Assembly (NCBI GenBank): GCA_000310025.1
Contig: FN649739.1
Span: 2,889,081 to 2,953,080 of the forward strand
Reading direction: 5' to 3'
Length of the DNA: 64,000 nucleotides
From: Ectocarpus siliculosus
Lineage: Eukaryota > Sar > Phaeophyceae > Ectocarpales > Ectocarpaceae
Made by a program: the position numbers and the translations under genes. The notes below the pieces were generated by a model. The model searched no databases. It had not been told where the DNA came from and saw nothing but the letters and a program-made list of their open reading frames with translations. Shown here in pieces: positions 5,519 to 35,000 of the stretch. Positions within the stretch are counted from its first letter, which is position 1; each line of letters begins with the position of its first letter.

Positions 5519-5788
5519 CTTGATCTCGGCAGATCGTCAGTGTGGGCTGTTGATCTGATCAATTTTAATTTTTGCGCTGCAAAATGTGCCCCCGGTTTCC
5601 CGAACCACATCGCCTCGTGGATATTCTGGAACGTCGAAATTAGCAATTCTCAGCTGATGTGCCCCCCAGGTTTAGGTTAGGTTGGGGTTAGCGCCCCACA
5701 TGGCAGCAGGTTTTCGCTCATCGTCAACAACGTTGCCATGGCTGGGCCGGATGGGTTGGAGCGAAGAAGGCGGCATGTTGGCACTCCC
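5519..5788. promoter_or_regulatory. Short divergent intergenic region, probable bidirectional promoter
   Basis: About 270 bp separate the ATG of the minus-strand peroxiredoxin-like gene (5518) from the proposed ATG of the plus-strand proteasome-like gene (5789). No other coding signal is visible here. Promoter function is inferred only from the head-to-head arrangement; I see no unambiguous TATA or initiator element. Confidence 0.4.
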
Positions 5789-8700
5789 ATGATAGCCGTT
5801 TTTGTTTTCTTCTATTGTGCGATGCTGTTGAGCTCGGTGTCAGGGGCGAGAGAGTCTAGCAAAGGGTGAGCAATGCATAACGCACAACCTACAGCCGAAC
5901 GTTACGGCACTCGTCTTCGTACACCCCATGACCCACTTCGCAGCGCATTGATGTCGATGTATGTGGGCACGAGGTGCTGTAGACAGCTTGGTACATTTCT
6001 GCAACATGATACGCTGCATGACGTTTGCTGCGGCAGAATGAGAATCATGTGTGCCTTGAAGGTACAGACGTGCATCTTCTCATCCGGATAGGAGCTCGTC
6101 CGACATGGGCGGCTTTTGGGAAACAGCCTCCACATTGCCAAAGCAGTGTGCAATCCTGGCGCCGCGCGTGCTTGACGTGTTGACGTGTCCCAAGTGTTTG
6201 CGGTGCTGTGACTGTGAGCAATAACCAATTTTGCTCTACCAGCAGAGCCAGTGCGACATGTACTACGCATCAGTGTCTGTCTGCAGTCAACAAGCTCTGT
6301 GTCGCATCCCTGGACAGCGATGGTTGTGCTGGCTCTCTGTTTCCTCTGGGATGCTTTACTGTAATCCGCTGTGGCTGGCTACTATTTTACACCACGCTTC
6401 TGGCCGCGCGGCCGGGTATCTCTGGGTTACGAACGCTACGGACTTTAAGGGCGCAGGGGGGATCGCAGTGTCTCCTCTTCAAAAATCCAGGAAACGCCTG
6501 CAAATCTCAGAGTTCCAAAGTCTAACTCCAGTACGAAACTACAGTCGCAAATTAACCGCCCGCCGCGGTCGCTTGGGTACAATGTGAGTTTCTGGGATCG
6601 TAGCCCTTGTAATACACGGCAGATTAGCGGTCCGAGATGTTCCAAACGATCTTTTTATCATCGAGATCGGCAAGCTACAAGCAGGGTTTGCTGCTGTGCG
6701 GTTCGAATTTAAAATGCTTCAAGCATGCAGTTACGGCGAATATGCACCAGTGTGAGTGTGTGGGGCTGCGAACTTCTGCGCAGCTCTTCCCTGACATGTC
6801 CTACTCGTCGCCATATTCGATTTGAATGCCTGGGGTCATGCATATGTAGGTCACGCCACAAACAAAGGTGCTTGAGACGTTTAAAAATCGGACCGCACAG
6901 CAGCTTAAAAAACCCTGCTTGTAGCTGACGATCTCGATGATAGAAAGATCGTTTGGAACATCGCGGACCGCTAGTTTGCCGCGTATCACAAGAGCTACGA
7001 TCCCAGAAACTAACATTGTCCACCAGCGACCGCGGTGGGCGTTTAATTCGCGATGGTAGTTTCGTACTGGAGTTAGACTTTGGAAAACTGAGATATGCAG
7101 GCGTTTCCTGGATTTTTGAAGAGGAGACACTGCAGTCCCCCCCGCGTCCAAAAGCCGATTACCAATGGCTGCAGGTCGCTAAAATATCGTTCGCATGTCA
7201 GTCTGGAACCTTTTCTTACGTGTTCGAGCTGCTGATCGCTTCGGGCGCCTCCTGTCTTGCACTCTCGCTCCAGGTACGATGCAGATCTGACGCTGTTCTC
7301 GCCGGAGGGCAGGCTCTACCAAGTGGAGTACGTCATGCGCGCTGTGGGGCACTACGGTTGTCCAGCGGTCGGGGTGCACGGAGAAGGTTGCTGCGTCGTC
7401 GCGTGCAAGCGAGATTTGCCGGCAAGTCTTGTGTGACACCGAACACACCGCAAGCGTAGTAATACCAGTGTTTATTGGACTTTCTTGCTGTTTTTCTTTG
7501 CGAACGCGTTGGTGAGTGAGATTACACGATGGCTCGGCGGTCGGAGTATGCGGAAGGAGCTAGCAAGTATCATGAAGCGCGGGAATTAGTATGCCTTTCT
7601 GCGTTAAGCTGGATGGGACTTGCTTGCCAGGAAACCAAGGCAAGTACGCATACCGCTGAAGGAAAACGGAAACACGAGAGTAACTCCTGTACGGCCTTCC
7701 CCCTGGAGGCCTCATACGTTCGGAAGACCTACCGAAAGGTGTAACATACATTCGGAAGGTAGATGACAACACGCACAGCGAAATAACCATTTGTAGTGGT
7801 CTGACAAATGGCTATTGTTCGAGAAAGCTGTGCACACAGTTGTGCGCGGGCAACTGCAGGCCGAAACAGCTGAGCAAACGATTGGTAAAGACACTAGTCG
7901 TGGAGTTGGCTGCTGTTGGTGTTGAACGTGATCAAACGGTTGTGTGCGTAGGTTGTTAGTTGTAGTTGAACAGGGTGTGAAGTGTTCCCCCCGTCCCGCC
8001 TATGTATTTACCCTGATGGCCTCTTTGACATGACACTTGTCTCTTCCACACTGTCCAGCCGAAAAGGGAGGACTTTGGTGACAACAGATTCAACCGGACA
8101 GAGGGCACCTACCAAACATTTGGTAGTATACATGCGTGGGGAGCAAAAGAGGTGTCGTACTACTGGTGTAGGCGGGGTTGAATTTAGGTAATACCACCGT
8201 GCCAGGCGAGTCGAACATTTTGCCTGCGAGGTAAGGCTCAATTTCCATTGCCTCATGAAATTATGGAGGATCCTGTCTCTGTTGACTCACATCTCGTGCG
8301 TTGTCACAAATGTTCGCGCGCGTTTGCTGCTTTTTTTGTAGCAGGATGAGCTAGTGTACCCCGATTCTGTAACCAGCATCTTTCGGATAACTGACGACAT
8401 CTACAGTGCGGCCACTGGAATGACCGGCGACGTTCGGTATCAGGTGAATATCATCTAGCCGTTGCCGCCAGCTCCATGAACGCGACAATGACACGTTGCG
8501 AGTGAGAAGACGAAACCGTCACAACCCTCCGATGGACGGTGGTTGTTGGGGTGTTCAGCACAGATTGAGTAAGAACCCGGCATGTACGTCATGCCCTACA
8601 TATTCTAAGAAGAAAATGCCCGCCGTGCAGAACCTTACGGGACAACTCGTTTGTGTCGACTTGTTTTGGTGCTTTACTCGAAGGAATCGATGTCGATGAA

Positions 8701-10682
8701 CGAAAAACGCGACCCCATGAATGCCCAGGCTCTTGTCTGTTGGGCGTTCTTTCATCCACTTGTTTGTCTTTGCTGGTGGAGACTCGCCGAAGCCGATGGA
8801 GAAAAACGCCTGGCGTGCAGCACAGCGACGACTAGCTGGTGGCCACAAAGTCCATTTTGTGAAGCGGGCGGGCCATATGACCGGTACATTCATTATTGCA
8901 GGGCCGGCACGCACGCATGACCGTATCGTGCCGTCAGGTGAAGCGGGCGCGGCTTCAGGCACTAGAATACAAGAGGCAATACGGCAGCTCTATGCCTTCG
9001 CGGTTGCTTGCTCTCGCGATGGCCGACGCCGCCCAGGTTAGTGAGACGGGTTAGTCTTGCATCAAGGGTTCGGTTTTTATCCTGCCGCGAAGTCACTGGT
9101 GTGCTTTAACCTGTCTTGGTGGAAGTGATGCGCACTTTACACAAGCCACGGCAACATGCTTTGACCGTTACGCCCTTGAACAATCTGGTCGGTCCGCAGG
9201 TGAACACTCAGCACGCGGCTCTGCGGCCGATGGCTTGTGTCTCCTTGATTATCAGGTACCTGCACTTCTCCGCAACATATGGCACTGAAGTTGGTTTCTG
9301 TTGTCGAGAATGATTCGACCGAAGTTGCTCCCAGGATAACCCCCCTGTGCTGATTCGTTCGCGTCGGCATCCCCTCAACACAGCTCGCCCGTTCACGCCA
9401 TCTACAGGCGTCTCTCGAACAATGGAGACCTGAGCCATTGATTGTGCGTAACCTGCGTTTGCTTTACGTTGCAGCGTGGATGATCCGACGGGACCCGCTC
9501 TGTTTCGGATAGAACCTTCTGGGCAGGTGTTCCAAGCATGGGTGAGGCGTTTGTGTTCCGATACTTGCCTCTTATTCGTCATGCCAGAGGAAGCTGTGTC
9601 GTGCATGGGCAGAATTCTCGGGTATGAACTTCATAGTGAAGCTGCCAGATCGTTTCTTCGTTGTTGCCTGCCTGAGCTGAATACAGCGTGGCCGATTCGG
9701 GCGAAGTACCTATGCAGACCTTCGGCGGTTCTCGATGTTGCTGTTCAGACACGCTTGATCTCTCTGAGCTGAGCCCAGGCTGAGTCCTCCCAAATCGCTC
9801 TGAGGGTTTCATCATCATCATACGAGCGCCGACGCTGCCGCAGTTAGCGCCCGGTCTTCGTAGCCGTTCTGTCACCTTCCGAACGGCATCATCACATGAC
9901 CAACAGCCTCACTTTTCCCCAAAGAGAATACTGGGCTCGCGTAGCCGCGGTGTTGGCGATTCTCACCCTCGCGAGCATGCGGTGCTGTGTCCATGCAGGG
10001 CACCGCTGTAGGCCGCGGCAGCGCAGCCTCCTCGGATTTCTTGGAGGAGGCCCTGAAAGCAGCGGCATCGAGGGACGGGAGAGGGAACAGCCGACAAGAG
10101 TCCACATCGTCAGTGGGGGGCGACGAGCACCGCACTCCAGACAAAGATTATTTTCCAGGAGTCCCTAATCCGTCAGTGATGAATGCTGAGAAGGAAGACG
10201 ATGATGGTCAAGGCCGTACGACAAGCGATGCACCCGCTCATGAGATCGTTGGGGACCGTGAAGGGGATGAAATTTCCGATGATGATGTTGACGCCGACAA
10301 CGTTGACGTCCAAGGGCCAGATGAAGAAACTCACAGGAAGCGAGGGAGTGAGGCAGGGGGGAAGATGACAGAGCCCTCAGATGAAAGTACGCCGGGGGAC
10401 GGCGGAGAGATTGGGACCGGGTTCGGGGTGGTGGGGGAGATGGAGACTGTGGAGCTGGCGTTACAAGCTTTGTCCAAGGTGGGGTTTGACTGTGTCTGTG
10501 CTTGTTTGCTTAAGGTCGAGCCGAACATCGCCCGTTTCCTTCATCGTGACAATTGTAAGCATGTGTCCCCCATGCGCAATGAAGCCGCAGCACAACTGCG
10601 CACAACGAAGGAGCCCGTAATCATGGTGACACCGGGGAGTTGCGACCGAGAGTCGTCCTCTTTGTGTCGTCCAGTTATGTAG
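5789..10682 (+). CDS. 20S proteasome alpha-type subunit (alpha1/PSMA6-like) with predicted signal peptide and acidic insertion
   Basis: Exons: 5789-5865, 7274-7421, 8345-8443, 8938-9036, 9200-9255, 9475-9541, and 9999 onward (open to a stop at 10680-10682). Phases agree throughout. Exon 2 carries the alpha-subunit signature YDADLTLFSPEGRLYQVEY; later exons give VTSIFRITDDI and ATGMTGDVRYQVKRARLQAL, ADAAQVNTQHAALRPM, DDPTGPALFRIEPSGQVFQA, GTAVGRGSAASSDFLEEAL and ETVELALQALSK, in the order expected for alpha1/PSMA6. Exon 1 (25 codons) encodes MIAVFVFFYCAMLLSSVSG, a classic signal peptide, followed by only ARESSKG before the core. Between DFLEEALK and ETVELAL lies an extra acidic stretch of roughly 100-120 residues absent from usual alpha subunits (235-260 aa). 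Intron 2 uses a GC donor (gcaagt). The C-terminal strand (usually ..EIEVGVV) was not found, so the 3' end is uncertain; exon 1 is also less certain than the core. Confidence 0.75.
6451..7149. repeat. Inverted repeat (foldback-like), 0.7 kb
   Basis: Arms of about 275 bp at 6451-6725 and 6868-7149 are reverse complements with scattered mismatches, around a spacer of about 140 bp. Outer ends share the run gcagtgtctcctcttc. It lies inside intron 1 of the proteasome-like gene. Neither arm has a transposase-like frame; both read open for 60-odd residues, which is a side effect of the arms being copies. No clear target-site duplication was seen. Probably a non-autonomous element. Confidence 0.75.
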
Positions 10683-29095: not shown

Positions 29096-32000
29096 ATGAA
29101 ACGAAGCATGACTCGCCATGCTATCACTGTTGGCCTTTTCGCCGCTCTGCTGCTGGCACTTTTCCGCGACGGCTGTGAGGGCAACTGCACGTCGTCTCTC
29201 TTGTGTGAGGACAGCGACTTCGATTGCATGTACTCCGACTGCGATCCGATGTCTATGACCGAGGAAGCGACGTGCGAAGAGAGCTGGAAAGGGGATAGTT
29301 GGTGCGATGCAATCAACAATAACCCGTCGTGCGACTACGATGGGGGGGATGTAAGTTTGTGAGCTGCTGCCTGATGGTGTTCCCTGCATGGGTGTGTTGC
29401 ATCGTGTGTTACCAGTGGGCACGGAGGAGAGGGAAAAACGAAAACGAACTACTAGTACCAATTTCCTCGAGGCCGCGCTGTCCCTCGGGCATGATCGCTT
29501 CATCCTATGGTAGACAGATCCATAGGCCAAGATGAGATCCAACCATTACATTGTTGCGGCATCAGTACACGACACACAATATCACGTTTTTCTTGGAAGC
29601 CCGAAATTATCAGTAAACCTCCTGTGCATGTTTATCAGCGAGCTCCAATACCACAAGGTCAAAAGCGGACCACCGAGACCGCCCAATCAACCACGTTGTT
29701 GTCATCGGGCATCCCTCGTCATTGAGCCCTGTCACTAACAACTAACTCAGCCCGCCGTATTGAACATATGCGCTATACGTCTGGTGCCTGAAATAATCCC
29801 TGCATTTTTGGTCACCCTTGTAAAACCACCTAATCAGACCCCAGGCGATGCAATCAACGTTGTTGCTGGCACGGCATCAATCCTGGTCAACAGTGCTGCC
29901 TCTCTCTGCAGTAGAACTAACACGAGGCATCCCCACCCGTGATGCAAACCATCAATGTCCCTGTTGCCGACGAAAACCTCCTGCTATGACGCCCTCCTTG
30001 AACCCCCCTCCTGCACGTCCTGCTGATATTTACGAAAAACTTTTGATCATTCAAACACGTCAGTGTTGTGAGTGCTCGTGTGCCTCCAGTAGCTCTGCTG
30101 AGCATTCGTGTGGGGAGAACGGGTTCAACTGCCGGGATACCACCTGCTTAGACCTTTCCCTTGTCGCTGAGTTCCCGGATTGCACCGGGGACTACCTGAC
30201 AGTTGGCGATGGCTCATGCTCCAAGGCCAACAACAACGATCTATGCGGCTATGACGGTGGAGATTGTTGTGTGTGCAGCTGCCAGGGTGTCAACTGCATG
30301 AGAACCTCGTTCGAGTGCTTGGATCCCAGTGCTAATGAAGAGCTCCATGACTGCGAACCATCGCCGCAGCTCGCCCTCCCTTGCACAGCAGACGCTCAGC
30401 AGACGTGGGTGGTGGAAAGCTCGACACAAGCGCAGGCTCTGGCCGCAGCGGTCAACTGCTCCGGCGGATTGTTCGAGGTGGAGTGGAGAGGCCGCGTAGT
30501 GGTGGGTCAGCCCTTCTATGTGGTGGATGGTACCGTCCTCACTATCTCAGGTGCCGATTCGAGTGCCGTTGTGGAAGGGAATGCGTCGACACGGATATTT
30601 ACCGTCGTTAACGCCGACCTATACTTGAGCCACGTCAACGTCAGCTACGGCTCCAGCACAACTGGGGGAGCAATCGCTGCGGCAAGGTCCAGCTTGACGC
30701 TCAATGGGACAAACTTCGTCGGCAACACCGCTTCGGCATACGGTGGTGCCATTTATGTGTCCGATGGCTCGAGCGTGTACTGCGTAGGCTCGACCTTTAG
30801 CGGCAATGAGGCGGGCATCGACGGTGGCGCCATGTATGTGACCGGCAGCTCGGTGATTTCAGGAGGCGGAACATGGGTCAACAACACGGCAGGCGATTCG
30901 GGAGGCGCCCTCAGGGTTCAGAGCGGCTCCAGCGCATCGTGGGGCGAAGAGTCTATGTTCGCCACCAACACCGCGGGACGTGCAGGTGGTGCCGTGAGCA
31001 TCGACAACGGCTCGGGCGTGTCCTGGAGTGGCCCAAACGGCTTTTATTCAAACAGCGCTGGACTCTACGGTGGCGCATTGAGCAGCATTCATGGCTCGAG
31101 CGCATCATGGAGCGACTTGACAACACACGCAAACAATTGGGTCGGAGACTTTGGATATGGGGGCGCGCTCTACCTGTGGAACGGGAGCATGGCCTCATTT
31201 AGCGCACAAACGGCATTTTTGGGTAATGAAGCAGGGTACAACGGTGGCGCCGTGTTCGTCGACGAAGGGTCTGCCGCATCATGGAGGGGGGAAGCCATGA
31301 GCGTTTTCGAAGGGAATCGAGCCGGACGTTTCGGAGGAGCTCTGGCGGTGTCGGCAAGGTCCCGTGTCTCATGTACAACAGAAACAACTAGCACATTTTT
31401 CGACAACTCGGCTTTTGATGGGGGCGGTGCCATTTTGGTTGAATTGGACTCGAGCTTGTCGTTCGGCGGCAACACGTCCTTCGAAAGCAACCGCGCGTTG
31501 GGTGACCTAAACACAGAGATAGGGTGGGGCGGTGCGCTTCACGTAGATGGCTCGAATGCCTCTTCTAGCGGACAAGTGAAGTTTACCGGAAACAGCGCCC
31601 GATACGGAGGCGCACTGTACGTGCTTCACGGCAGCGTCGGGTGGAGCGGGGAGACAATTCTAGCAGAAAACGATGCGTCGGTATCAGGAGGTGCTGTGTT
31701 CTCCGGTTTTTCGGCCATGTCATGGTTCGGGGATACGCAGATGTTCAATAATTCGGCCGAAACGGGGGGGGCTCTCTATCTTTCATCCTCGGTCGCTATG
31801 TGGGATGGGAATACGACCATGACTGAAAACAGAGTCACCGGCGATGCAGCAGCAGGTGGTATCATTTGTGCAGTCTTCGCTTCCACGATTTACTGGAGTG
31901 GAGGTTTGACAAGGTTCATCGGGGGTTCCTCGAGCTTCGTCGGAGGCGCACTCTATGTCAGTGGCAGTGAAGTAACCTGGAGCGGTGGGACAGAGTTCTC

Positions 32001-35000
32001 TGGAAATACTGCTCTTTTCGGCGGCGCCGTTTACATGTTGAATGGAACTTCGGTTGGCTGGACCGAACATACCGAGTTCACGTCGAACAGGGCACTCTCC
32101 GAAGGAGGTGCGATGATGTCGCCGTCCTACGACTCAGAGTACAACCCCCTAGAATCAAGCCTGGTTATCAACGGGACCACGACCTTCTTCAACAACACAT
32201 GCGGAGAAAACGGGGGTAGTCTGGCCCTGTTCGATGCATGTTCTTTAGATATCAACACTGCGGATGTCAGCTTCACCGGAAATTCAGCTGGATTTGCCGG
32301 CGGGGCTGTATTCGTGTCTGGGGCCGGGATTGGCCCGACGTTTTCAGACGTGAGCTTCATCTCCAACTTCGCTCAGGTTGGGGGTGCCGCCTCTGTGTTT
32401 GGGTCTGGGAACGATAGAGGTATGTTGAGTCCCATAATTCCAACGAAGTTCGACCGATGCCGCTTCATCGACAACGTGGCGACAACATCCGGCGGAGCTG
32501 TCGACAGCGCAGCTGGGCAAGACATTGTAGTCAACTCCGTTTTCAAGGGGAACTCGGCGGAGGTTGGGGGTGCGCTTAGACTGGCAGGCACTGCATTTGT
32601 GGAAAATTGCTCTTTTGTCGAGAACGTTTCAGGCCGCCAAGAGGGGGCCGCGGTGTCCAACATTGGGCTCGTGTCCACGATGGCAAATTCCTCCTTCACC
32701 GGCAACGGCTTCACCTGTGGACCAGACCTGTTCCTGGAATACGACGCGGTGAGTCGTGGCTGCATTGGATCTGGAGGTCATGCTACGTAGCAGCAAACTC
32801 GGTTGGGGTTTCGATACACTACTTGTGCATGTTGATGATCGAGACATGATGATGTTTGCCGCTCAAGGTCCAAAAACATTATTCGAATATAGGTCGCGAA
32901 CAAGTTTGCTCGGAAGCAACAGGAAGGTTGGTCCCGAAGACATGTCTTGCACAAGTGAGGATAGCCTTTCATAAAGTACCTAGTCCGACGAGAGGAGGCG
33001 CACACCCTACTCACGTGGCCTTCGGAACACTTGCAGGCCTGGGGTGAGGGAGGTAGCAGTAGTAGCAGCATGAATTTGGGGAGCCGTGACGTCCATCTCC
33101 GCTTTCCTCAGCCGTCTCCAATTGCTTATTCCACAGTCCCAAGCGCATTTTGTTTCGAAACTCGGTGGTTTGCCTCCCAATGTTTCGTCTTGTTGTTTCG
33201 CAGACAGATAATGGTACCTTCGAGGCTGTCTGCGATGGATGTCGAGTTGCGTGCGATGGATGCTCCTTTGATGAACCTCCTGCAGTCCCAACTTGCTCGG
33301 ATGTGATGGACCATGGCACAAGCACGGGTGGCAAGGTTACCCTGGAAACACTGTCGATCGATCCTGGGTACTGGAGGGCTACGTCATCCAGCAAAGAGAT
33401 TCTTCCTTGCTACAACGCTGACGCTTGCCTAGGAGGAGTGACTGGCACTGCAGGATACTGCCTTGAGAGCTATGAAGGACCATGTGAGCGCTGTGCTGGT
33501 TGTGTGTGCAGCTTTGAGAATTCTAACAACGAGGTTGCAAGTGCCCTGGCCTTATCTCGAGGTGTGCCTTAACGCCAACGTCAGTTTCCAGACAGAGTGG
33601 CCAACACTCGAAGACAGAGTGGCCAACACTCGAACTATTTTTTGTTTCTGTTGGTGCCCATCAATATCATCACACACGCGTAGTGCTCCAAGATTCACTA
33701 CCGTAAGGTTGCGATTCAGCGCACAGGGGTGCGATCGATTTTCAAAGCCCAATTACTCCGAAACCAGGAGGGTGCGAGCGCCAACTGATACTTGTCCCGA
33801 AAGCTCTCGATGAGATGTTTCCAAAACCACCCTTTTCGACAGTGCTAACCTTCTGGTTGTGGAGAAAGGACTCTTGGAAAATCGACCGTTCCCCTGTCCG
33901 CTGGCTCGCAACCTTACGGTATATCGTTACTGAAGTGCGACATGCTGCCATCTCCCGTGTCTGCCAAATCAAACAGATTGCTCCATCTGCAGCGATGGTT
34001 ACGCGTCGAACCTGGGTTATTCATGCAGCAAGTGCTTCAGCCGCTCTGGCGGCATCGTGTTCGCCGTTGGTATGGCCGTTTTGGCGTTGTTCGTTGCCGT
34101 TGTTGTGATCATGTACATCATGTCTGGGGAGGCAGGGGAGCGGAGAATGTACGTGTTGGAGCGCTTGGGGTGGTACGTTCCGCTGCAATCTGTGAAGATC
34201 GTCATCGTCTCGTGGCAAATTCTGACACAGGTATGACTTTTTGCAGACATCGATTTTGGGTGGGAACGGGATGATTGATTTACTACAATAGATGCGCCTT
34301 CATGAATTCATTCCGCCTTCCGATTTGTGCCAAGAGCTGAAAATCGGGAAAAGGTTCCTATAACTCGCAGAAACATGACACGCCCAGCTGCTTGCCCGCG
34401 TCTACCTCATCACCCGTTCCCATACTACTGTAGTTCGCTTCTGCGGCGAACGTCGTCTACCCGGGTGTGTACCAGCAATTCTTAGACGGCCTGAAGGTGT
34501 TTGGCTTCGACCTGGGATGGTTGATGTCTGCCGGATGTGTCTTGGACATGGGCTTCCATGGTCGACTGCTCGCAGCTACGATCGGCCCGATCTTCGCCGT
34601 TCTTCTCTTAGCTGGAACCTACGCCGCTGCGACCCGTATCAATCGCGAGGCCAATGAGAAGCTGCGGATCATCTGGGACAAGCACGTGTTTGTGTTCCTG
34701 CTGCTGACGTTTCTGGTATACTCAAGTGTAAGCTCCACCTTGTTCAAAACGTTTGCGTGTGACGAGCTCGAGGACGGCAAAAACTACTTGCGTACAGACT
34801 ACCGCATCGAATGCGACTCCAGCAAGCATAAGGTTTTCCAAGTGTACGCAGGTTTCATGATCTTGTTGTACCCCCTAGGCATTCCCATGTTGTATAGCAT
34901 TCTGTTGTTTAAGGATCGTGAGGTGTTAAAAAAGGACAAAGCCGACCGAGACGACAGTGCTCGCGTGAAGTCGACCTCCGAGCTTTGGCAACCGTACAAG

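Follow-up and report, generated by a model that had tools for sequence, protein, structure and literature searches.

A proteasome alpha1 gene with a predicted signal peptide in Ectocarpus siliculosus and its membership of a probable second 20S core of the periplastid compartment

The window analysed here, 64,000 nucleotides of the brown alga Ectocarpus siliculosus (assembly GCA_000310025.1, contig FN649739.1, positions 2,889,081 to 2,953,080), contains a gene for a proteasome alpha1 (PSMA6-type) subunit. Its seven exons, which were placed manually with homology and splice signals as guides, join in frame to encode 409 amino acids without a stop (Table 1); the donors are GT throughout except for a GC donor at 7422. 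In profile searches the protein scored above cut-off against both PF10584 (43.4 bits; 47.3 bits recorded for exon 2) and PF00227 (110 bits), while spliced alignment with the seven alpha types gave 338 for alpha1 against 295 for the next type. The best match in the PDB was PSMA6 (E 5.5e-44), and the first ten rows were all alpha type-6, one being labelled only 'alpha type'. At an acidic insert (33 D/E and 12 K/R among 124 residues) the automatic spliced alignment goes wrong and fragments the last exon. Here the hand model was kept because the PDB alpha1 aligns through this exon as far as the insert. Neither the human reference nor the canonical paralogue, as far as the latter was modelled, has the insert; judging by the insert's open frame and composition, we infer that it is coding sequence and not a retained in-frame intron. 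The C terminus of the protein lacks a KDEL-type end.

Table 1. Features of the alpha1 gene, in window coordinates.
Feature	Position	Strand	Evidence
Exon 1: signal peptide and mature start ARESSKG	5789..5865	+	splicing; RESSKG homology to human alpha1
Predicted signal peptide MIAVFVFFYCAMLLSSVSG, within exon 1	5789-5845	+	
Exon 2: N-terminal signature of alpha subunits (YDADLTLFSPEGRLYQVEY) and first strands of the core; GC-AG intron downstream	7274..7421	+	PF10584
Exon 3: core	8345..8443	+	hand model, spliced alignment, PDB alignment
Exon 4: core	8938..9036	+	hand model, spliced alignment, PDB alignment
Exon 5: core	9200..9255	+	hand model, spliced alignment, PDB alignment
Exon 6: core	9475..9541	+	hand model, PDB alignment
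Exon 7: core end, acidic insert, C-terminal part, stop codon	9999..10682	+	hand model; PDB alignment as far as the insert
Acidic insert of 124 aa, between the FLEEALKAA and METVELALQALSKV helices	10068..10439	+	open frame, composition

The original prediction started the gene with the exon at 5789-5865, and this choice is borne out by the open seven-exon frame, the splice score and the homologous residues. Of 41 pairs of ATG exon and acceptor that could lie ahead of exon 2, the three with the donor at 5865 score best (15.6; next 14.3), and spliced alignment to human alpha1 gives an identical junction of exons 1 and 2. The exon-1 residues RESSKG pair with RGSSAG of the solved human alpha1; exon 1 is therefore homologous coding sequence. 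The strong signal peptide claimed for it is likewise apparent, with a mean Kyte-Doolittle hydropathy of 2.66 over 11 residues, a von Heijne matrix score of 9.4 and a predicted cut at SSVSG/ARESS. A second in-frame ATG upstream, at 5738 (MAGPDGLERRRRHVGTP-MIAV...), leaves this cut unchanged. At random pseudo-starts a signal-peptide-like in-frame extension occurred in 337 of 20,000 cases (1.7%).

A conventional alpha1, which the original prediction had proposed looking for, does exist: an ordinary gene without a signal peptide lies on another contig (L017 on C10). The window protein is 45% identical to it over 161 aligned columns. The assembly contains second, diverged copies for 13 of the 14 types of 20S core subunit, although several models are partial. 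These comprise alpha1 (the window gene), alpha2 (L012), alpha3 (L010), alpha4 (L011), alpha5 (L018), alpha6 (L019/L033) and alpha7 (L034), together with beta1 (L028), beta2 (L026), beta3 (L027), beta4 (L030), beta5 (L031) and beta6 (L025); the models of second alpha3, alpha6 and alpha7 leave the C-terminal halves unresolved. Canonical copies were found for 13 types, alpha5 being the exception. Neither set is thus complete in the assembly, which was searched for a second beta7 and for a canonical alpha5 and yielded neither, and both results count against the reading we favour below. Three candidates were rejected. L018 scores just 149 bits against human alpha5 and was therefore rejected as the canonical alpha5; as a yardstick, human alpha5 gave 236 bits with yeast, 292 with entry 7qve and 221 with entry 5fmg (which we take to be spinach and Plasmodium, respectively). 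L035, which has a signal-peptide-like in-frame extension (score 8.3), was ruled out as a second beta7 by its canonical-level similarity (197 bits against human and 237 against 7qve, compared with 202 between human and 7qve). The beta candidate L029 was dropped, its frame resembling HslV. Contaminant origin of the second genes is unlikely because canonical and second genes sit on common contigs: one megabase contig (C11) carries second alpha4, second beta1 and canonical beta4, and another (C2) second beta6 and canonical alpha4.

Second and canonical copies share 31–57% identity over the parts compared, and in all 12 types for which both are available the canonical copy is nearer to human than to its second copy. 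At sites where two of the three sequences agree, human and canonical were paired 460 times, human and second 151 times, and canonical and second 177 times; the two copies therefore reflect an old split and not a recent duplication. In 10 of the 12 types, however, canonical and second are slightly closer than human and second, which counts against the reading we favour below. Of the second betas, beta1 alone was compared with solved chains, and it displayed no particular affinity to the plant chain (177 bits to plant versus 198 to human), a further point against that reading. The catalytic Thr1 is retained in second beta1, beta2 and beta5, as are the positions that we take to be Asp17, Lys33 and Asp166. 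In second beta1 the predicted signal-peptide cut, LVDA/TTLVAARF, falls directly before the threonine, which is preceded by Ala and not Gly.

Signal peptides were sought in both sets by one automatic rule applied to the open frame ahead of the core. Eight of 13 second copies passed, compared with one of 13 canonical copies; seven second genes besides window alpha1, of both the alpha and the beta type, thus have a signal-peptide-like start, as had been proposed for examination. Second beta3 narrowly fails (hydropathy 1.62 against 1.7). For second alpha5, beta4, beta5 and beta6 a signal peptide is obtained only through a guessed upstream exon, and similar hydrophobic candidates also precede five of the six canonical genes tested. 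The single beta7 gene, canonical by divergence, also passes and has both plain and signal-like in-frame starts, and canonical beta4 reaches both cut-offs within its own core. The expected lack of Phe at +1 after the cut was found throughout: no second-set model has an aromatic residue there (0/13, four of them on guessed exons). For alpha5, alpha7, beta5 and beta6 this residue was read at a hand-chosen cut rather than the top-scoring one, and the top-scoring cut of second alpha7 has Tyr at +1. In six of the nine second genes whose signal peptide does not depend on a guess (alpha1, alpha3, alpha4, alpha6, beta1 and beta3), eight or fewer residues separate the predicted cut from the conserved core, a spacer about as long as canonical N termini; a longer stretch follows in alpha2, in beta2 and, at its best cut, in alpha7. 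The extended transit-like part that a bipartite signal should have is missing from many second subunits, a point against a periplastid destination. None of the 13 has four acidic residues in the first 11 of the mature protein, the most being three, in window alpha1.

The ATPase OB-domain PF16450 was detected at five loci by profile search, which fits one 19S set of about six; no second set of 19S ATPases, the only cap parts searched, was seen. A search for a second UMP1 chaperone also returned none, which counts against the favoured reading. The genome encodes fucoxanthin-type antenna proteins. Five of 87 light-harvesting matches were taken up and four of their frames read; all four have the SAFNG motif, in contrast to the second proteasome subunits with their non-aromatic +1. 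A Der1-like protein is also encoded, its presequence combining a candidate signal with a long transit-like part. Together the antenna and Der1-like proteins speak for a complex red plastid with what would be SELMA-type import. A second Cdc48 gene is present, the first exon of its model being unresolved.

Most probably, on the evidence of these sequences, the window gene encodes alpha1 of a second 20S core that is sent by signal peptides to the periplastid compartment, where it would act as a capless protein-degrading barrel. Second alpha1 would be made in the cytosol, enter the secretory route by its cleavable signal peptide and then pass through the periplastid membrane to reach what remains of the engulfed alga's cytoplasm. 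Delivery would rely on the signal peptide and a mature N terminus that is not strongly acidic, in place of a long transit-like peptide. In the compartment alpha1 would join the other second alpha and beta copies in a barrel that has all three customary protease activities and lacks its own 19S cap; this barrel would break down misfolded or surplus periplastid proteins, perhaps fed by the second Cdc48. We infer both the red-algal origin and the periplastid location of the set.

It could be argued that the second set acts in the ER lumen, further along the secretory pathway or in the extracellular space. This would accord with signal peptides followed by hardly any transit-like stretch, when the genome's Der1-like gene does have a candidate long one, and passages of PMC12136025 describe periplastid and secreted or ER locations as easily mistaken for each other. 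In a diatom, however, a four-residue uncharged remnant joined to a neutralised reporter sufficed for passage across the periplastid membrane, so that the transit-like stretch need not be long, and acid-rich mature N termini are proposed to cause ER retention (as far as the consulted parts of PMC3017844 go), a feature lacking in all 13 second-set proteins. Likewise, the part of PMC5070193 consulted places host-encoded 20S subunits, sent by signal peptide, in heterokont periplastid compartments. The window protein also ends without a KDEL-type sequence, and we consider an ER or secretory site unlikely.

Less probable still is that the signal peptide is a chance reading and that some transcripts start in an alternative first exon, yielding a cytosolic proteasome subunit. 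The many possible ATG-exon/acceptor pairs and the two kinds of start in beta7 give this idea some purchase, but the exon at 5789 combines the top splice score with homologous residues, seven other second genes pass the same signal-peptide rule, and a conventional alpha1 exists elsewhere; we regard it as very improbable. That the second genes are non-functional, being either foreign or in decay, is scarcely credible. Their strong divergence, the acidic insert of alpha1 and the 3' ends of some models, which could not be completed, might suggest as much; against this stand the uninterrupted frame of the seven-exon window gene, the conserved catalytic residues, the contigs common to both sets and the recurrence of signal peptides.

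In diatoms and heterokonts, a periplastid 20S proteasome was reportedly described by Moog (2011) and Stork (2012). This kind of machine is already reported in diatoms, and the brown-algal set would be a further case. The two resemble each other in host-encoded second subunits with signal peptides, in the absence of any second 19S ATPase set seen and in the lack of an aromatic +1, and differ, against the diatom and heterokont system as described in the available parts of PMC5070193 and PMC5756292, in the organism, a brown alga, and in extending to 13 of 14 types. Judged from the brown-algal copies, unusual details of this set are the transit-like stretch that is nearly absent in many subunits, the predicted processing of beta1 and the insert in alpha1. 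The cryptophyte nucleomorph proteasome also belongs to an endosymbiont compartment; according to the same portions of PMC5070193 and PMC5756292 it is encoded in the relict nucleus with 19S parts, whereas the brown-algal genes are nuclear, bear signal peptides and have no second 19S ATPase set that we could see. The canonical cytosolic/nuclear 20S shares subunit type and N-terminal signature with the window copy, but its alpha1 has neither the signal peptide nor, in the modelled part, the insert.

If the relict-cytoplasm proteasome of diatoms is also encoded, nearly whole, in a brown-algal genome, the compartment would retain a degrading core, and the second set offers a test of the minimum targeting information for a periplastid protein. 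It also bears on how ERAD-like import spares its own cargo. More tentatively, these sequences may hint that signal peptides alone deliver a near-complete 20S, with mature N termini finishing the targeting, and that signal peptidase frees Thr1 of beta1 without self-cleavage after Gly-1; this stronger version, which would leave room for an ER-lumenal instead of a periplastid site, is possible, though we lean slightly against it. Second beta1 provides a test of whether signal peptidase can stand in for self-cleavage in proteasome maturation and, if so, the catalytic activation of the (caspase-like) beta1 would be coupled to membrane passage. In the alpha ring, a column that presumably holds the activator-docking lysine has K in canonical alpha2, alpha3, alpha4 and alpha6 and in second alpha2, alpha3 and alpha5, whereas second alpha4 and alpha6 lack it; loss of this lysine in the second ring is only a lead.

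The proteasome gene in the window is genuine and is one of at least 13 genes for a second 20S core. The assembly searched comprises 189 Mb in 492 contigs, the window lying at C14:2889081-2953080. Searches used PF00227, PF10584 and single-subunit queries, and spliced alignment was applied to 24 loci and the window, with further loci added later. Across the whole assembly these searches and alignments identified 13 subunit types as canonical copies, alpha5 being missing, and 13 as diverged second copies, beta7 being missing. The original prediction had proposed looking for a conventional alpha1 gene elsewhere in the genome, and such a gene is indeed present on contig C10 (locus L017). Contamination is argued against by megabase contigs that carry both canonical and second genes.

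Alignment margins assign the second alpha2, alpha4, alpha5 and beta1-6 copies to their types clearly; the margin is fair for alpha1 (338 versus 295) and alpha3 (338 versus 288), and weak for alpha6 (263 versus 250) and alpha7 (242 versus 223). In PDB searches alpha7 ranked first among types for the second alpha7 (L034), while the highest matches of the second alpha6 were two archaeal-type alpha chains, followed by a 7qve chain that we take to be plant alpha6. The models of second alpha3, alpha6 and alpha7 are partial, their C-terminal halves being missing. Two queries found no canonical alpha5 in the assembly, the alpha5 locus on contig C1 (L018) being the second copy; the canonical gene may lie in an assembly gap or in sequence outside that searched, or may be truly absent. 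One of the first 24 loci (L029, C489:1458500-1465500) was rejected as it contains no 20S subunit; its frame reads like HslV, the bacterial-type threonine protease.

The window gene was modelled by hand as seven exons with every junction in phase and one GC donor among the introns, giving a protein of 409 amino acids.

Exons of the second-set alpha1 gene (window positions)
Feature	Position	Strand	Content
Exon 1	5789-5865	+	Signal peptide and mature start
Exon 2	7274-7421	+	
Exon 3	8345-8443	+	
Exon 4	8938-9036	+	
Exon 5	9200-9255	+	
Exon 6	9475-9541	+	
Exon 7	9999-10682	+	

The signal peptide is followed by the alpha-subunit signature, the proteasome core, an acidic insert of 124 residues (33 Asp/Glu and 12 Lys/Arg) and the last helices. 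Both PF10584 and PF00227 exceed their Pfam cut-offs, and the top solved relatives in a PDB search are alpha type-6 (that is, alpha1) subunits (E 5.5e-44), the human N-terminus aligning with RESSKG, the first residues past the signal peptide. Spliced alignment with human alpha1 gave an identical exon 1/exon 2 junction. The aligner split exon 7 around the insert; the hand model was retained there because alpha1 in the PDB supports exon 7 as far as the insert. Among 41 possible pairs of ATG exon and acceptor, the three that use the donor at 5865 score highest (15.6 versus 14.3 for the next) and vary only in the ATG (5738, 5789 or 5822), the predicted cut being common to the starts at 5738 and 5789. 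Intron 1 also contains an inverted repeat (6449-6672 and 6926-7149) with 224-nt arms that are 89% complementary and separated by 253 nt, resembling foldback or MITE-type elements.

Signal peptides on other subunits, which the original prediction had suggested seeking, are predicted for several of them. An automatic criterion was run on all 26 genes. It required an ATG lying 12-75 codons ahead of the core within one uninterrupted reading frame, a hydropathy ≥1.7 and a matrix score ≥3.5; for the window alpha1 it was applied to exon 1, which an intron separates from the remaining exons. Eight of the 13 second copies passed (alpha1, 2, 3, 4, 6, 7, beta1 and beta2) compared with one of 13 canonical copies (beta7), and 337 of 20,000 random positions passed under the same cut-offs. 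This control favours the reading that the second set carries signal peptides, with beta7 as the one exception. For second beta3 a cut is predicted (score 6.6), but its hydropathy of 1.62 falls just short of the threshold. Six of seven canonical proteins with a plain start scored <3.5, and canonical beta4 meets both cut-offs within its own core (4.3, 1.87). For second alpha5, beta4, beta5 and beta6 the signal sits in a guessed upstream exon and is weak, as similar hydrophobic candidates precede five of the six canonical genes tested. The only beta7 gene found (L035, C6:2618800-2625300, minus strand) shows canonical divergence, yet starting from an ATG further upstream in frame lengthens it by a signal-like segment (score 8.3). 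Use of two starts could let this gene supply both proteasomes; alternatively, the signal might be chance (about 1.7%).

The residue after the predicted cut (+1) is aromatic in none of the 13 second-set models used, although the cuts were partly hand-chosen. For alpha7 the second-best cut, after G23, was counted, the top-scoring cut (after C15) giving +1 Tyr; those of alpha5, beta5 and beta6 were hand-chosen, their top-scoring cuts giving Val, Thr and Gly, respectively. Among the first 11 residues after the cut, no model reaches four acidic ones, the maximum being three in the window alpha1. The predicted cut lies ≤8 residues from the conserved core in second alpha1, alpha3, alpha4, alpha6, beta1 and beta3. 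In alpha7 the distance is 16 residues, which the second-best cut shortens to 8, while alpha2 and beta2 have long intervening stretches. Thus, many second subunits appear to consist of a signal peptide followed by an ordinary-looking proteasome N-terminus. Such proteins could end up in the ER lumen or in the periplastid compartment. Passages of a diatom study describe a truncated, uncharged transit-peptide remnant with a neutralized reporter as sufficient for periplastid passage, and acidic N-termini as keeping the reporter in the ER (PMC3017844); periplastid proteins generally lack +1 Phe and can carry early charged residues (PMC12136025). Given these features, the periplastid compartment would be the likelier end point and the ER lumen the less likely one.

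Identity was compared over the first 130-165 residues of the 12 types having both copies. Canonical-human identity (40-74%) exceeded canonical-second identity (31-57%) in all 12, by only about one point for beta4, and the canonical-second pair was slightly closer than human-second in 10. At sites where exactly two of the three agree, human and canonical share 460, human and second 151, and canonical and second 177. A recent duplication of the cytosolic subunits would predict many more sites in the last class; the comparison fits a possible endosymbiont origin of the second set.

The second beta1, beta2 and beta5 retain the N-terminal threonine and the stretches GADSR/GADTR/VDSR, DK/QK and RD/ND, residues with catalytic roles. 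Gly precedes Thr1 in beta2 and beta5 of both sets. The reading of second beta1 opens with MHPF, no Met coming earlier in the open stretch of 180 codons, and includes AAAGLVDA-TTLVAARF; since the best predicted signal-peptidase cut falls directly before Thr1, we infer that signal peptidase would generate its active N-terminus. For canonical beta1 the upstream exon, and with it the residue preceding Thr1, was not found.

In heterokonts, the periplastid compartment is described as containing 20S subunits that the host encodes and that signal peptides deliver (PMC5070193). Diatoms have periplastid 20S proteasomes without a 19S cap, according to PMC5756292. A second 20S core is a kind of system already known; no report of one in brown algae was recognized in the literature searched, judged from titles and passages, and what may be new is how short the presequences are, together with the N-terminus of beta1 and the acidic insert of alpha1. 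Major parts of SELMA, the ERAD-like import system of complex red plastids, are described in passages on Nannochloropsis as missing, indicating that heterokonts differ among themselves (PMC6610115). One gene for the chaperone UMP1, five 19S ATPase OB-domain loci, two Cdc48-N loci and four derlin loci were seen; no signal peptide was resolved at the second Cdc48 locus. A Der1-like gene (L050, C23:1696400-1698900, minus strand; PF04511, 53.9 bits), whose upstream exon has a putative signal peptide along with an extended transit-like region, is a possible SELMA derlin. Antenna proteins gave 87 exon matches in the assembly and match fucoxanthin proteins, the best being FCP17 of entry 9ygv. Resemblance to kelp FCP sequences is the basis for taking the sequence as brown-algal. 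Contigs C92, C232, C488 and C16 carry closely spaced arrays of light-harvesting genes, the first three with many equal-scoring matches. Elsewhere in the window, a 988-codon open frame (29824-32787) with Chlam_PMP-type repeats (PF02415, 74.9 bits over the whole frame) perhaps encodes a large surface protein.
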